A stretch of DNA of 45,914 nt from Chelativorans intermedius. GTDB taxonomy: Bacteria > Pseudomonadota > Alphaproteobacteria > Rhizobiales > Rhizobiaceae. Where the stretch lies: the NCBI RefSeq assembly GCF_025398255.1, contig NZ_JAODNW010000026.1:1-45914 (forward strand), given 5' to 3'. A program made the position numbers and the translations under genes. The notes under the pieces are model-generated. The model saw nothing but the letters and a program-made list of their open reading frames with translations, ran no database searches and was not told the DNA's origin. Positions 28,243 to 38,277 of this stretch are shown piece by piece; positions within the stretch are counted from its first letter, which is position 1, and each line of letters begins with the position of its first letter.

Positions 28243-30249
28243 CTACTCCACCCTGATCGTTACCCGGCTCAGCACCTTGCGCTGGGGAATGTCGAGCAGC
28301 CTGAATTCGTAGAATCCTGTTTCTTGGGGCAGCGTGAAGGTCAATGAGGGGCCTTCGGCCTTTTTTGCCTCGATCCATGTGAAATCAGGCTGGTCCGCTC
28401 CGGCCAGGGTGACGCGCCGGTCACCGCCGCTGTCTTCGGCCGTCCAGCGCACCTCCACCGTCTCGCCCGGCTTTCCAGCTTCGGGGGCCTCCAGCGCGCC
28501 GCCTTCATTGAGCGCGGCGGTCGCGGCCACCACCTCGACCGGGTGGCGGGCGAGGATTCGCTTTCCCTCGTCGAGCACATAGCGGACCTCATAGAGGCCG
28601 GTCTCCTCCGGTGCGCTCAGATCGGCGGAATCGCGGCCGCCGACGCGCACATAATCGCCATAGGCGCCCTCCTGCGCGCCCATCGGCACGATCGTTACAT
28701 AGTCGCGGCCGTGCGGCGGCGATCCAGACCACACCACGCGGATCTGCGAGCCGGCGCGCACCGTGTCTGGGCCCGCAAGCTCGATATCGGCTTCGACGAT
28801 CTCAATGGGCACGGAACTCAGCGTCTTGCCGCCCTCCTGGAGCACGTAGCGCACCTCGTAGAGCCCGGGCTCGGCCGGCGCACGAAGACTGCCCTCGCTC
28901 TTGTCGCCGACGCGCGTGTAGTCGCCATAGTCGCCTTCCGCCGCACCCGCCGGAACGATGGTCACATAGTCGCGCGGGTGGATGCCCCTTGACCATTGAA
29001 CCGAGAAGGAGGAGCCGACGACGGCGCTCTGCGGTGCCTGCACCGATGCCTCTGCCTTGACGATCTCGATCTCGGCGGAAGCCAGCGTCTTGCCGCCCTC
29101 CTGAAGCACGTATCGCACTTCGTAAAGTCCGGCGTCAGCGGGTGCCTGAAGGCTGCCCTCGTTCTTGTCGGCAACCCGTGTGTAGTCGCCATAGTCGCCT
29201 TCCGCCGCGCCTGCCGGAACGATGGTCACATAATCGCGCGGGTGCACCGCACCCGACCAGGAAACGGAAAAGCGCTCGCCTGCCGTCGCGCTTTGCGGCG
29301 CCGAGACGGAGACGTCGGCCTCGACGATCTCGATCTCCGTGGAGCCCAGGGTTGAGCCGTCCTCCTGGCGCACGTAGCGGACCTCGTAGAGCCCCGGTTC
29401 GGCGGGAGCGCGCAGGCTGCCCTCGCTTTTGTCCTGCACCCGCTGATAATTGGTGTATGTGCCTTCGTCCGCGCCCAGCGGCACGATGGTCACATAGTCG
29501 CGCGGCGCCTGGGTGGGCGCCTGCCAGGATATTGCGAAACTGGAGCCGATGACGGCGCTTTCGGGAGCCTCCACCACGACGCTCGGCGCCGGCGCGGGCT
29601 CTGGTTCGGGCGTCGGTTCGGGGGCTTCGGCAACAGCCGTTCCGACGGTGCTGAGTGCCGCGCCCAGCCCCTCGGCACTGCGCGCCGCGACAAAGCGCCC
29701 CCCGGTGCGCTCGGCCATGCAGGCAACCGCTTCCTGCTCCTCGCCTTTCAGGTCGAAGCCGACGACATGCGCCGTAAAGCCGACGCCCATCCGCTCCAGT
29801 TCCTCGGCAAGCGCGCATGGATCGCGCTGGCAGCTCTCGATCCCGTCGGTGATGAGCACCACGGTGGCCGGCCTGTCGCGATAGGCCAATGCCTCTGCGG
29901 CCTGTTCCACGGCGGTCGTCAGCGGTGTCTTGCCGCGCGGCGTGATGCTCCGGACGCGCTCCAGGAATGCGTCGCGGACAAAGGGGCCGGGCGTAATCAT
30001 CGTCTCGATGTCGCTGCAGTCGCCCTCGTGGCGATGGCCGTAGGCCATCAGCCCCACATTGGTGCCGTCGGTCCAGTTGCCGACGAGGCGTTCCATGGCT
30101 TGGCGGGCGATCTCGATCTTGGCGACGCCGTCGATCTGTCCCCACATGGAGTTGGAGCCGTCGAAGACAACCATGACATCGTCGGCAGCCTGCGCGCTGC
30201 CGACCCACAGGAGCATCAAGGCGACCGCTGCACGTTTCATCGGCTTCAT
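28243..30249 (-). CDS. Secreted VWA-domain protein with five tandem Ig-like repeats
   Basis: This 668-residue protein has a signal peptide (MLLWVGSAQA-AD) and a von Willebrand A domain at about 24-205. The metal site is in FDGSNSMW (Asp30, Ser32, Ser34), GKTPL and TDGIES. A Pro/Glu linker (PEPTPEPEPAPAP) follows, then five repeats of 88-92 residues at 223-311, 312-399, 400-487, 488-576 and 577-668. Each of the first four carries RDYVTIVP and GLYEVRYV; the fifth is degenerate. The start at 30249 has CAGGGGGA upstream. It follows a membrane-protein gene on the same strand by 84 bases. An extracytoplasmic binding or adhesive role is likely; the ligand is unknown. Confidence 0.85.
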   Translation of the reverse strand: MKPMKRAAVALMLLWVGSAQAADDVMVVFDGSNSMWGQIDGVAKIEIARQAMERLVGNWTDGTNVGLMAYGHRHEGDCSDIETMITPGPFVRDAFLERVRSITPRGKTPLTTAVEQAAEALAYRDRPATVVLITDGIESCQRDPCALAEELERMGVGFTAHVVGFDLKGEEQEAVACMAERTGGRFVAARSAEGLGAALSTVGTAVAEAPEPTPEPEPAPAPSVVVEAPESAVIGSSFAISWQAPTQAPRDYVTIVPLGADEGTYTNYQRVQDKSEGSLRAPAEPGLYEVRYVRQEDGSTLGSTEIEIVEADVSVSAPQSATAGERFSVSWSGAVHPRDYVTIVPAGAAEGDYGDYTRVADKNEGSLQAPADAGLYEVRYVLQEGGKTLASAEIEIVKAEASVQAPQSAVVGSSFSVQWSRGIHPRDYVTIVPAGAAEGDYGDYTRVGDKSEGSLRAPAEPGLYEVRYVLQEGGKTLSSVPIEIVEADIELAGPDTVRAGSQIRVVWSGSPPHGRDYVTIVPMGAQEGAYGDYVRVGGRDSADLSAPEETGLYEVRYVLDEGKRILARHPVEVVAATAALNEGGALEAPEAGKPGETVEVRWTAEDSGGDRRVTLAGADQPDFTWIEAKKAEGPSLTFTLPQETGFYEFRLLDIPQRKVLSRVTIRVE
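28246..29583 (-). repeat. Five tandem about 265-bp coding repeats inside the VWA gene
   Basis: Repeat units run 29583-29317, 29316-29053, 29052-28789, 28788-28522 and 28521-28246. Units 2 and 3 are the most alike, sharing long near-identical blocks such as HPRDYVTIVPAGAAEGDYGD, so they look like a recent duplication. Unit 5 is the most diverged. Such arrays can change copy number by recombination. Confidence 0.85.
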
Positions 30250-30333
30250 AGATTCCCCCTGTTTTCGATCTGCAGTCACCGAGGCAGAACCGGCGACGGA
30301 TCGGGCAGTTTGACTCCTTCGAGGAAGGCTTGG

Positions 30334-34109: not shown

Positions 34110-34411
34110 GTGCTTCTCATATCCGCTTCCGCCGGCAAGGCAAATGTCCTTGTCAGACCTGCGCGCATCGACGGTGGGAATCGGCCGAAACCGTGCGGCG
34201 TGTGACCGCCGCGCTGGCCATGGCGTCCTCTCCTGCCGCTCGCGTTTCCGTGATAGTATTCGTGAAGTGAAAATCGAAACCGTGAGGCAGTAGACACAAA
34301 TATATATCCCGTATGTGAAGTATGATTGTTTTTATTGTTTTCTCCATGGGCGTCATATTGTCGTCAGAGGCGTTGAGATGAGCTCTTCGCACAAGATGAA
34401 TGGAGAAAACC
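34110..34411. other. AT-rich intergenic region
   Basis: About 300 bases separate the divergent AbrB-family gene and the small secreted protein. The stretch 34290-34340 is markedly AT-rich (ATATATA and runs of T) and probably holds the promoters. I found no confident -35/-10 pair and no operator. Confidence 0.45.
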
Positions 34412-34705
34412 ATGTACAAGATCCTCGTTCTGACACCCGTCATCGCCATGTTGGGCCTTGGCAACGCACTGGCTTTCGACGCCGCAAGCGGCTTTGGTCC
34501 CAGCGATGCCAACGATGAGCCCGTTCCCCGCTTCCAGCTTGCCGATCCGGTCGATCGGTCGGTCGTGACCGCCGGCATCGCAACGCGCGCCTCGCGCGGC
34601 GCTGCTGCCGGCATCGAACGCACCGGGCGCTTCTCGGCTGCCTGGGGGTTTGGCCCCAGCGATGCCAATGACGAGCCGGTCCCGCGTTTCCAGACCGTCC
34701 GCTAG
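34412..34705 (+). CDS. Small secreted protein with duplicated 16-residue motif
   Basis: This 97-residue protein has a signal peptide (KILVLTPVIAMLGLGNALA, cleaved near residue 21). The mature part of about 76 residues carries the motif GFGPSDANDEPVPRFQ twice, at 27-42 and 79-94, so copies lie near each end with a basic, alanine-rich link between. The two copies are identical in protein but differ at 8 of 16 codons, all silent. The ATG at 34412 has GGAG 6-7 bases upstream. No family was recognised and there are no cysteines. A hairpin follows the stop. Confidence 0.75.
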   Translation: MYKILVLTPVIAMLGLGNALAFDAASGFGPSDANDEPVPRFQLADPVDRSVVTAGIATRASRGAAAGIERTGRFSAAWGFGPSDANDEPVPRFQTVR

Positions 34706-35349: not shown

Positions 35350-36786
35350 CTACCCCGCGCAGCAGGAAAGCCGCGTCACATCCTTCTCGAAGGCCTGTGC
35401 AGCCAGCTTCCAGGCTTCCACCGTGGTGAGGTAGGGAAAGATGGTCTCGCCGAGCTCTTTGGCCGTCATTGCGTGTCTTATGGCAAGCGTCAGCGTCTGA
35501 ATGCTGTCGGCCCCCTCGGGCGCCACGATCTGTCCGCCCAGAAGACGACCGCTGTCGCCATCGGCCACCAGCTTCACCAGGCCCCGTGTGTCGCGCGCTG
35601 CCAGGGCGCGCGGCACATGATCGAGCGGGACGAGCGATGTCCTGACCGCGCGGCCTGATGTCCTGGCCGTCGCCTCCGTCAGCCCCACCCCGGCAACCTG
35701 CGGATCGGTGAAGACGACCCACGGCATGGCGGAGTTGTCGTAGATGTGCGCGTCGCCTTCAAGGGCGTTCAGTGCGGCAAGCTTCGCGCCATGGGCGGCC
35801 ATGTAGACGAACTGGTCGCGGCCGGTCACATCGCCTGCGGCATAGGTGTGCGGGCGCGTCGTGCGCAGGCGCGCATCCACGACGATGGCGCCACGGTCGT
35901 CGAGCCGGATTCCGGCTTCGGCAAGGTGCATTCCGGCGGTGTTCGGCCTGCGCCCCGTCGCGAAGAGAATGCGCTCGGCCACCAGCGTCTCCGTTCCCTT
36001 TTCCGACCCGATTGCAAGCGCGACCCCGTCGGCGGTACGGCCGAGATTGCGGTAGGCGAGGTGCTGGCGCACGGCGAGACCTTCCGCGCGCAGAAAATCT
36101 GCCAGTGCGGCGGAAACCTCGGGTTCGGCTTCGGGCAGCAACCGGCTTCGTGTTGCAAGCGTGACCCTGACGCCCATCCGCGCAAACATCTGTGCAAGCT
36201 CGCAACCGACATAGCCCCCGCCGACGACGAGGAGTGATCGGGGCAGGGCCTGCAGGGCCAGCGCCGAGGTGCTGTCGAGAAAGGGGATGTCGTCAATTCC
36301 CGCAATATCCGGCCGGGCCGGGGAGGCACCTGTGGCGATGACGATCCTGTCGGCGCGGATTGCCACACCGTCGACCAGAAGGCTGCCGCCGTGGAAGCTT
36401 GCCCACCCTTCCAGATAGGCAATGCGCTCGTAGCTGGACAGAAGATCGAGATATTTCGTCTTGCGAAGCGCTCCCACGAGATCGTCCTTGGCCGCGGCAA
36501 GCGCCGGCCAGTCTGCCAGGTCTGCCTCCCCCACGAGCCCCGGAAAGCGCATCACCGCGCGCGTGTCGTGGAGCGCCTGCGCGGCGCGGATCATCGTCTT
36601 GGATGGCACGCAGCCGATATTGACGCATGTGCCGCCGATCGTGCCATGGCCGATCAGCGCCACATTCGCGCCCCGCTCGGCAGCGGCGATGGCTGCCGAG
36701 AACCCGGCCGAGCCCGCGCCGACAACGGCGAGGTCATAGGCTCGCCTTTGGCCTTTCCGGCGATTGCGGGCGACGAGGTCAGACAA
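35350..36786 (-). CDS. merA: Mercuric reductase without N-terminal metal-binding domain
   Basis: This is a 478-residue flavoprotein disulfide reductase that reduces Hg(II) to Hg(0) with NADPH. The FAD loop VVGAGSAGFSAAIAAAERGA is at about 21-40 and the redox-active pair GGTCVNIGCVPSK has Cys54 and Cys59. The NADPH loop is VVGGGYVGCELAQMF, and the C-terminal Cys475-Cys476 pair (LSCCAG), which takes mercury from the solvent, is present. The N-terminal MerP-like domain found in many MerA proteins is absent. The best start is TTG at 36786, overlapping the merF stop. It is last in the operon merT-P-F-A. Confidence 0.92.
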   Translation of the reverse strand: MSDLVARNRRKGQRRAYDLAVVGAGSAGFSAAIAAAERGANVALIGHGTIGGTCVNIGCVPSKTMIRAAQALHDTRAVMRFPGLVGEADLADWPALAAAKDDLVGALRKTKYLDLLSSYERIAYLEGWASFHGGSLLVDGVAIRADRIVIATGASPARPDIAGIDDIPFLDSTSALALQALPRSLLVVGGGYVGCELAQMFARMGVRVTLATRSRLLPEAEPEVSAALADFLRAEGLAVRQHLAYRNLGRTADGVALAIGSEKGTETLVAERILFATGRRPNTAGMHLAEAGIRLDDRGAIVVDARLRTTRPHTYAAGDVTGRDQFVYMAAHGAKLAALNALEGDAHIYDNSAMPWVVFTDPQVAGVGLTEATARTSGRAVRTSLVPLDHVPRALAARDTRGLVKLVADGDSGRLLGGQIVAPEGADSIQTLTLAIRHAMTAKELGETIFPYLTTVEAWKLAAQAFEKDVTRLSCCAG

Positions 36787-37021
36787 CGCGGTTCTCCGGC
36801 CGTGTTGCGGCGGTGCGGCGGCATCTTCGCCGTCTCCACAAACCGCAAGCCGTGAGCCCCACGAACATCGCGAACAAGGGTATGAGCACGAAATCCGCCT
36901 GGGCGAGCCATGCCGACAGGCCCGCCGCACCGAAGATGACCACCAGAAGCGGGGTCGCGCAGCACAGCGCGGTAACAAGGGCGCCGGCAAGGCCGGTTCT
37001 GACGATCGTCAAATCCCTCAT
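36779..37021 (-). CDS. merF: Mercury transporter MerF
   Basis: This 80-residue inner-membrane protein has two hydrophobic segments. The first carries the mercury-binding pair in VTALCCATPLLVV; the second (FVLIPLFAMFVGLTACGLW) ends at a basic tail RRRRCRR. It passes Hg(II) into the cytoplasm to MerA. The ATG at 37021 has AGGTGA 5 bases upstream; a GTG at 37030 is possible. It begins just after merP and its stop overlaps the merA start. Confidence 0.9.
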   Translation of the reverse strand: MRDLTIVRTGLAGALVTALCCATPLLVVIFGAAGLSAWLAQADFVLIPLFAMFVGLTACGLWRRRRCRRTAATRPENRVV

Positions 37022-37030
37022 GGGAATCAC

Positions 37031-37354
37031 CTATCCCTTCACCGCTGCCGGATAGCCGGCATTCGTGGAGGCGGCCTTGATCTTCTCCACGTTCGCAAGC
37101 GAGGGATCGTAGGTCACGACGGCGGTGCGGGCCTCGAAGTCGATGGTGACCGACTGCACGCCTTCGACACGTTCCATCGCCGTCTTCACCGTCACCGGGC
37201 ACAGGGCGCAGGTCATGTTTTCGACCGTGAAGGTTGCCGTTTGCAGGGTCTGGGCGCGTGCCGGCTGCATGAGGGGCGAGGGCGGAAACACAGGCAGCAT
37301 GCTGCCGGTCCCCAGCGCCAGAACGCCGATGGCGAGGATGACGGATGGCTTCAT
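37031..37354 (-). CDS. merP: Periplasmic mercury-binding protein MerP
   Basis: This 107-residue protein has a signal peptide (VILAIGVLALGTGSMLPVF) and one heavy-metal-associated domain. The mercury site is ENMTCALCPVTVK, with the two cysteines separated by Ala-Leu, and the domain ends in STNAGYPAAVKG. It captures Hg(II) in the periplasm and hands it to MerT or MerF. The ATG at 37354 follows CAGGGAGA; the 7-residue longer form is less likely. It lies 24 bases after merT. Confidence 0.92.
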   Translation of the reverse strand: MKPSVILAIGVLALGTGSMLPVFPPSPLMQPARAQTLQTATFTVENMTCALCPVTVKTAMERVEGVQSVTIDFEARTAVVTYDPSLANVEKIKAASTNAGYPAAVKG

Positions 37355-37378
37355 TTGCGTTCTCCCTGGACGCATCGG

Positions 37379-37774
37379 TCAGTAGAAGAGGGGTGCCCAC
37401 CACTCGATGCCGAGGGCGAGCGTTACCAAGATGGCGGAGAGCCACAGGGCGGACCTGACGAGAGCCCCGGATTGCGGCCGCGTGGAGCAGGCCCCCTCGG
37501 CGCAGGCCGGATTCGGCCGGAAATAGACCTGCCGGAATCCAAGCGCGATGAAAGCGATCGAAATGACGGCGAAGGCAGGTTTCAGGGGTTCAAGTGCTGT
37601 GAGGCTGCCGATCCACGCGCCGGAGACGCCGAGCATGACGAGCGCCAGCGGCAGAATGCAGCACGAAGATGCAAGAACGGCGCCGAGCAGGCCGCCGGTG
37701 GCATACCATCGCCTGCGCTGCACGCCGCTGCTTGTGGCGGCGCTGTCCGATGCCGGGTTGACGTCCGTGTTCAT
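37379..37774 (-). CDS. merT: Mercury transporter MerT
   Basis: This 131-residue inner-membrane protein has three predicted membrane segments. The membrane cysteine pair is in LASSCCILPLALV and the cytoplasmic-loop pair in ACAEGACSTRP, as in classical MerT. It imports Hg(II) received from MerP. It is the first gene of the operon, with the MerR-controlled promoter about 45-75 bases upstream. Confidence 0.92.
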   Translation of the reverse strand: MNTDVNPASDSAATSSGVQRRRWYATGGLLGAVLASSCCILPLALVMLGVSGAWIGSLTALEPLKPAFAVISIAFIALGFRQVYFRPNPACAEGACSTRPQSGALVRSALWLSAILVTLALGIEWWAPLFY

Positions 37775-37816
37775 GTGCCGGTCTCACCGCCTCGTCATTC
37801 GCCTCATGGATGCATT

Positions 37817-37847
37817 CAGGCTACAGTCTGTAGCCGGTACAGGCTCA
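37817..37847 (-). promoter_or_regulatory. MerR-controlled promoter and operator of the mer operon
   Basis: On the minus strand -35 TTGAGC (37847-37842) and -10 TAGCCT (37822-37817) are separated by 19 bases, the overlong spacing expected of promoters activated by DNA untwisting by MerR. The spacer holds the dyad CTGTA-CCGGC-TACAG (37841-37827). A second, perfect 17-base palindrome, GGCTACAG-A-CTGTAGCC (37834-37818), overlaps it and the -10. MerR bound here would repress without mercury, activate with mercury, and control its own divergent gene. Confidence 0.82.
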
Positions 37848-37863
37848 AGGAGGATGCCGGCCC

Positions 37864-38277
37864 ATGCGCGATCACATTTCCGGGAGGCCGCTGCGGCGCA
37901 AGGAACTGGCTCGACGGACGGGCTGCAACATCGAGACCGTCCGCTACTACGAAAAGATCGGCCTGATGCCCGAGCCGCCGCGTTCGGCCGCCGGCTACCG
38001 CCTTTATGACGAGGATCATGTCTCGCGCCTGCGATTCGTCCTGCGCGCCCGCGAGCTCGGCTTTGCCATCGACGAGGTGCGCGACCTTCTGGGGCTTGTC
38101 GACAGCGGCACGCAGACCTGCGCCGAGGTGAAGGAACGCACCGAGCGGCATCTTTCCGATGTGCGCGCCAGGATTGCCGACCTGCGGCGCATCGAGAAGG
38201 TGCTGGCGGCAACGGCGGCGCGTTGCACCGGGGAGCGCGTCCCGGAATGCCCGGTGCTGGAGGCGCTGTCGCGCTGA
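37864..38277 (+). CDS. merR: Mercury-responsive regulator MerR
   Basis: This 137-residue MerR-family activator-repressor has an N-terminal winged helix at 10-75 (KELARRTGCNIETVRYYEKIGLMPEP would include the recognition helix), a long coiled dimer helix and three metal-binding cysteines, Cys86, Cys121 and Cys129. Their spacing is close to that of known MerR (34 then 7 residues between). The start follows AAGGAGG at 37846-37852. It is divergent from merT, with the operator between them. The cysteine set supports mercury over other metals. Confidence 0.92.
   Translation: MRDHISGRPLRRKELARRTGCNIETVRYYEKIGLMPEPPRSAAGYRLYDEDHVSRLRFVLRARELGFAIDEVRDLLGLVDSGTQTCAEVKERTERHLSDVRARIADLRRIEKVLAATAARCTGERVPECPVLEALSR

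Follow-up and report, generated by a model that had tools for sequence, protein, structure and literature searches.

Why should a small, apparently exported protein of Chelativorans intermedius carry the same 16 residues twice, with the two copies written in different codons? The gene lies in a 45,914-nucleotide stretch of DNA (contig NZ_JAODNW010000026.1), called the window here; the features of the gene are collected in Table 1. An earlier reading, made from the sequence alone, had proposed that the copies are held constant by selection on the peptide itself, and the observations on which it built are correct: GFGPSDANDEPVPRFQ is present twice in the translation, 8 of the 16 codons differ between the copies with all 8 differences silent, and the protein contains no cysteine. 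By the Nei-Gojobori count, the pair offers 10.7 silent and 37.3 replacement sites and shows 8 silent and 0 replacement differences. If changes fell randomly among sites, the chance of 8 silent changes out of 8 would be ∼6e-6, which is a rough null that ignores mutation bias. Among the family members that we aligned, the exact 16-mer occurs in the window gene only, with close variants, such as GFGPSDANDQPVPRFQ, in paralogs. What the earlier reading missed is that the gene belongs to a multi-gene family, that the DNA upstream of it is conserved, and that some members are linked to large regulators.

Table 1. Features of the small-protein gene and its upstream DNA, in window coordinates
Feature	Position	Strand	Basis
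Dyad TCGC-N6-GTGA, one mismatch to the family dyad TCAC-N6-GTGA	34240..34253		Dyad scan
Three GTGA-type sites: GTGATAGTA at 34250, diverged GTGAGGCAGTA at 34282, GTGAAGTA at 34315	34250..34322	+	Positions in paralog upstream regions
Likely ribosome binding site, GGAGAA	34402..34407	+	Sequence reading; GGAG(A) kept before the start in aligned paralog upstream regions
Small protein gene, 97 aa, putatively exported	34412..34705	+	Translation; family members in the same genome; relatives in the genus
Predicted Sec signal peptide, residues 1-21, ending ALA before FDAAS, without a lipobox cysteine	34412..34474	+	Sequence reading
Motif copy 1, GFGPSDANDEPVPRFQ	34490..34537	+	Translation; codon comparison
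Variable spacer, containing VDRSVVT	34538..34627	+	pN/pS 0.74
Motif copy 2, GFGPSDANDEPVPRFQ, preceded by FSAAW and followed by TVR, together forming the C-terminus	34646..34693	+	Translation; alignments

The start codon chosen for the 97-residue frame is plausible, as judged from the GGAGAA that precedes the ATG and from the alignment of paralogs from the same methionine; a second in-frame ATG lies ahead of it at 34400. Read by eye, the N-terminus has the features expected of a Sec signal (a positive N-terminus, a hydrophobic stretch, and an A-x-A site), and A19 and A21 at the end of the signal are invariant in 12 of 12 aligned relatives. Export of the family proteins is probably of the Sec type. 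The C-terminal motif is almost invariant in the alignments of relatives, and the mature composition is rich in A, G, R, D, and P. An AlphaFold2 model, built from a 15-sequence alignment, was poor (mean pLDDT 53.9, pTM 0.14); this may reflect disorder, though the shallow alignment may be its sole cause. We regard the family proteins as probably disordered.

A search of the protein's own genome gave 6 places in 4 genes, namely, the window gene, two neighboring genes on contig 16, and one gene on contig 30. When the search with the window protein was extended to 61 genomes (its own and 60 relatives), 7 were matched, all 7 from the same genus. A 12-row profile had matches in 9 of the 16 genus genomes, the largest number in a single genome being 12, and a motif-only profile found 67 places in 10 of the 16 (E ≤ 1e-3). 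Absence of the motif from all other genomes, which by the sequence-only reading's own account would have refuted it, is not what is seen. Counting genes by contig position from both profile searches gives 10 in G007 and 9 in G001, and paralogs reach about ten per genome. An alignment scan of named genome contigs yielded 13 loci, all from Chelativorans (salis, xinjiangense, and alearense); a single-protein scan of the same contigs found no relative. In a profile search of 297 genomes of the bacterial family, 3 genomes of the genus were matched together with one protein outside it (G316), of which only 60 N-terminal positions matched; by its sequence this is an unrelated exported protein, presumably of the DUF305 type. 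A further profile (A6) gave 7 matches outside the genus in the 297 genomes. Three of these (G162, G203, and G022) were translated and have neither signal nor motif, and the other four were dropped on their table entries alone, which show either internal stops or frames 1628 to 7434 residues long. Plasmid, phage, and viral-contig searches gave no homologs. In the searches made, no credible match falls in other genera and the family is restricted to Chelativorans.

The claim that the protein belongs to no known family also stands. The window protein matches 0 families in Pfam and 0 in NCBIfam, and its relatives give only weak lone matches, none over the curated cut-off; the weak single-member matches (PHROGs, E 0.011; NCBIfam, E 0.014; Pfam, E 0.021, 0.13, 0.14, and 0.59) were set aside as chance. 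No PDB sequence matched a 15-row profile at E ≤ 1, and literature searches, with most subscription papers outside their reach, returned no paper on the family and no match to the motif strings. Among known systems, a close likeness is to DUF680 (PF05079), small exported-looking proteins typical of Mesorhizobium that are short, multi-copy, and found in one genus of the same order; the Chelativorans proteins resemble them in being short, exported-looking, multi-copy, and of a single genus. As an assignment, DUF680 was rejected: 0 of the 16 genus genomes scored over the curated cut-off, and the window protein matched 0 Pfam families at E ≤ 1. Within the family, three subfamilies can be told apart. 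Proteins of the window type end in GFSAAxGFGPSDxNDxPxPRFQxxR and carry one to three repeats of the motif, which is 16-25 residues long. The second subfamily is of the GYNASDDFGxSDxNDLP type. The third, of the FEPSNQSDxPTPDF type, precedes malate synthase G in four loci and is grouped with a bridging protein in G010. A further GYNASDDF-type paralog was seen in L154, L155, and L156; in L154 and L156 a gene near it looks, by its N-terminus, like one that we take to be the primary sigma factor gene rpoD.

Comparison of paralogs shows where selection acts. Over 36 pairs from 9 genes, pN/pS was 0.22 in motif copy 1 and 0.17 in copy 2, compared with 0.32 in the signal and 0.74 in the spacer, with silent sites near saturation and gaps in the spacer alignment; the window type has 14 full-length genes, of which these 9 were sampled so as to exclude near-identical orthologs. 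Within the other members, silent divergence between the copies is mostly high and replacement divergence lower, but exceptions of both kinds occur: the copies of L026 are almost identical, and pN is near 0.3 in L029, L031, and L035. The silent-rich differences in most two-copy paralogs, taken with the ratios of 0.17-0.22 for the motif vs 0.74 for the spacer, bear out the proposal that the peptide itself is under selection; purifying selection is on the motif and not on the spacer. Recent conversion plus sequencing errors, which had been named as a second ground for refutation, is not borne out for the window gene, though paralog L026 does have near-identical copies, 1 codon apart. The mean identity of copies is 0.739 within the same gene (9 genes) vs 0.719 between different genes, a comparison that gives no support to concerted evolution as the rule for copies throughout the family. 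Because copies in the same gene are barely closer than those in different genes, the copies probably arose by an old duplication, and the window gene, with its full identity, marks the top of the range.

The upstream DNA is conserved as well. Upstream regions can be aligned between the window gene and five paralogs of its type, and the GTGA-type sites in them correspond in their distance from the start; in the paralogs, these lie at -158 to -162 (first), -126 to -128 (middle), and -95 to -97 (third) relative to the start. Across 16 genomes, a model of this GTGA-site stretch (R1) matched nowhere beyond the 6 places on which it was trained and hence revealed no further target of the array as a whole. 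A model built upstream of another paralog group (R2) matched 10 places in 9 of the 16 genomes: six training places, three in front of distant paralogs unlisted by profile A1, and one intragenic. Common to the R1-type and R2-type upstream regions is the dyad TCAC-N6-GTGA. Its exact form is present in 17 of 46 upstream regions of 250 bases each, vs 0-5 at other spacings of 0-20, and many of these regions are orthologs, so that the 17 dyads are not independent; with one mismatch allowed, the count is 24 of 46 vs 3 to 13 at other spacings.

A different element, GGAAC-N16/17-CGTT, precedes 5 of the 46 genes, the window gene not being among them, and the pair occurs at no other spacing from 8 to 26, bar one overlapping case at 11. 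This is an EcfG-type stress promoter by its sequence, which fits GAAC-N16,17-C/GGTT, the EcfG consensus given for Methylobacterium (PMC4814048). Family genes near malate synthase G have EcfG-type promoters in all five of L060, L065, L068, L075, and L061, and in three of these loci hydantoinase A lies between the family gene and malate synthase G. In one paralog group, CTAGAAATTTGGATTTGAGTGTCC is strongly conserved between the TCAC-N6-GTGA dyad and the start (L024:4900-4987; L068:4834-4903; L113, L114, and L115, about 1490-1600); Rfam gave no match to this group in the two loci scanned (L024 and L068). Rfam returned nothing at gathering scores in the window and, in four loci, tRNAs only, plus sub-threshold overlaps. 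A conserved 5′ leader hairpin was considered and dropped: folds beat shuffles by at least 2 SD in 3 of 9 leaders, and the window leader has a z of -1.06.

When the neighborhoods were compared, no gene family was common to all loci. A search of six genomes, in which 150 of 175 to 309 candidates per genome were scored, detected at least seven AAA_16 (STAND-type) regulators, in three of the six (E ≤ 1e-8). Six of the seven detected adjoin a window-type family gene; they fall into three orthologous groups, and three different orientations occur. The seventh (G003:C108) has no family gene nearby and is a counter-example. Most family genes have no such regulator adjoining, and none stands beside the window gene, which is flanked by an AbrB-type membrane protein and a small frame. 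Further on are mer-type genes (35350-38277) for a pyridine nucleotide-disulphide oxidoreductase (probably mercuric reductase), an HMA protein, MerT, and MerR. The regulators are alike over the AAA_16 region at 22-29 percent identity, and one that is linked (L034) has TPR and a LuxR-type HTH. The linked small genes group together with weak support (83/80), the unlinked L025 and L033 falling among them, so the three linkages may share one origin.

What is established is a genus-restricted, multi-copy family with constraint at the level of the motif, conserved upstream elements that differ between members, and linkage to regulators in part of the family. The explanation that we prefer, tentatively and at somewhat less than an even chance, is that these proteins act as envelope effectors that can stand in for one another and are wired differently, and that their repeated linear motif binds an envelope partner common to all of them. 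The product of the window gene would then belong to a set of Chelativorans proteins that are small, exported via Sec, and probably disordered. In these, the motif would be a short linear module for binding, with a single fixed partner, periplasmic or in the outer envelope, as its docking site, and its repeats would add avidity. One output would be wired to several inputs, namely, a TCAC-N6-GTGA regulator, the EcfG general stress response, and the adjoining STAND-type regulators, so that an envelope adjustment could be triggered by different conditions. That a short repeated motif was kept while the rest of the protein drifted suggests to us that it touches a fixed partner in the cell envelope. 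Against this explanation, the window gene is without an adjoining regulator and has the dyad only with one mismatch, and absence of the motif from 6 of the 16 genus genomes (E ≤ 1e-3) argues against an essential partner function. No partner protein for the motif was found in the analysis. The family is new and ordinary in kind, and its wiring is unusual; being genus-confined, without recognized homologs, and motif-selected behind several promoters, it offers a clean case for the recruitment of new exported proteins into envelope stress responses. Of the three functions that the sequence-only reading had offered, a binding motif fits best, a processed peptide keeps some chance, and a sorting signal is disfavored.

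The rival that survives best, though we consider it unlikely, is a hydrophilin-like protectant, an exported disordered protein that would shield the envelope under salt, alkali, or drying stress without a specific partner. Hydrophilin-type stress proteins are likewise small and probably disordered, and the unfolded low-confidence model, the abundance of A, G, R, D, and P, and the EcfG-type promoters in 5 of 46 upstream regions, which give some members a stress-type promoter, speak for such a role. However, composition-driven proteins need no near-invariant FSAAxGFGPSDxNDxPxPRFQ. Unlike hydrophilins, the Chelativorans proteins have a constrained linear motif, separated from the spacer by an about fourfold gap in pN/pS, and invariant aromatic residues, which suit binding better.

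Binding to an envelope partner also accounts for the data with more probability than a pro-peptide, a doubtful reading in which cleavage after export would free the repeated motif as a signal or bioactive peptide, possibly sensed via the neighboring STAND/TPR regulators. Near-identical units in one to three copies around a variable spacer have this appearance, as does the linkage to large regulators, one of them (L034) with TPR and a LuxR-type HTH. A small exported product adjoining a TPR-containing regulator, as in some Chelativorans loci, resembles RRNPP systems, the peptide-regulator pairs of Gram-positive bacteria, whose signals tend to diverge. A regulator adjoins 6 family genes in 3 genomes and not the window gene. 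By contrast with RRNPP systems, the motif varies little and most family genes have no such neighbor. No dibasic or other constant cleavage site was seen around the units, and the C-terminal copy always reaches the end of the protein in the window's subfamily.

Periplasmic cation binding by the S-D-x-N-D-x-P core, be it of calcium or of a different divalent ion, is improbable. Two acidic residues and the asparagine are kept in most copies, and mer genes lie near the window gene, but the N and the second D are replaced by G, S, or D in several members and no conserved metal locus adjoins the family genes. We give a very small chance to a reading in which the motif, once exported, signals as a peptide outside the cell and STAND-type regulators (AAA_16/TPR/BTAD or LuxR-type) respond to it; this would be a Gram-negative peptide circuit, with one motif expressed behind several promoters and feedback on the giant ATPase regulators beside some genes. 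Little is known of the signals that large STAND regulators sense in Gram-negative bacteria, and if the STAND linkage is functional, it would provide a simple readout for what they sense.

One regulator-linked group extends into YcaO and TfuA: a family gene, a BTAD/AAA_16 regulator, YcaO, TfuA, and two further genes are found at L029:6001-12284, L163:9024-17484, and L164:6486-14820. This locus, present in three Chelativorans species, looks like an unreported thioamidation-type cluster. The arrangement raises a highly improbable reading, that the small proteins are ribosomally made, post-translationally modified peptide precursors of the RiPP type handled by YcaO and TfuA. One paralog group does head such a locus in 3 of 16 genomes, and in adjoining both genes it resembles the YcaO-TfuA thioamidation loci (PMC8120280). 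It differs from them in that a YcaO search gave 0 matches in the window's genome and none in 13 of the 16 genus genomes, several of which have the family; in addition, the proteins carry predicted Sec signals, and the two further genes at the locus could encode the substrate. Least probable of all is a C-terminal sorting or anchoring signal common to many exported proteins, which the position of the motif at the extreme C-terminus in the window's subfamily might suggest and which is disfavored because none of the frames that hold the 67 motif places (E ≤ 1e-3; not all 67 translated) exceeds 279 residues; a single large frame, of 606 residues, matched only at E 0.43.

Elsewhere in the window, on the minus strand at 28243-30279, we note a large exported-looking protein with several internal repeats of the form DYVTIVPxGAxEGxYxxYxRVxDKxEGSLxAPxExGLYEVRYV.
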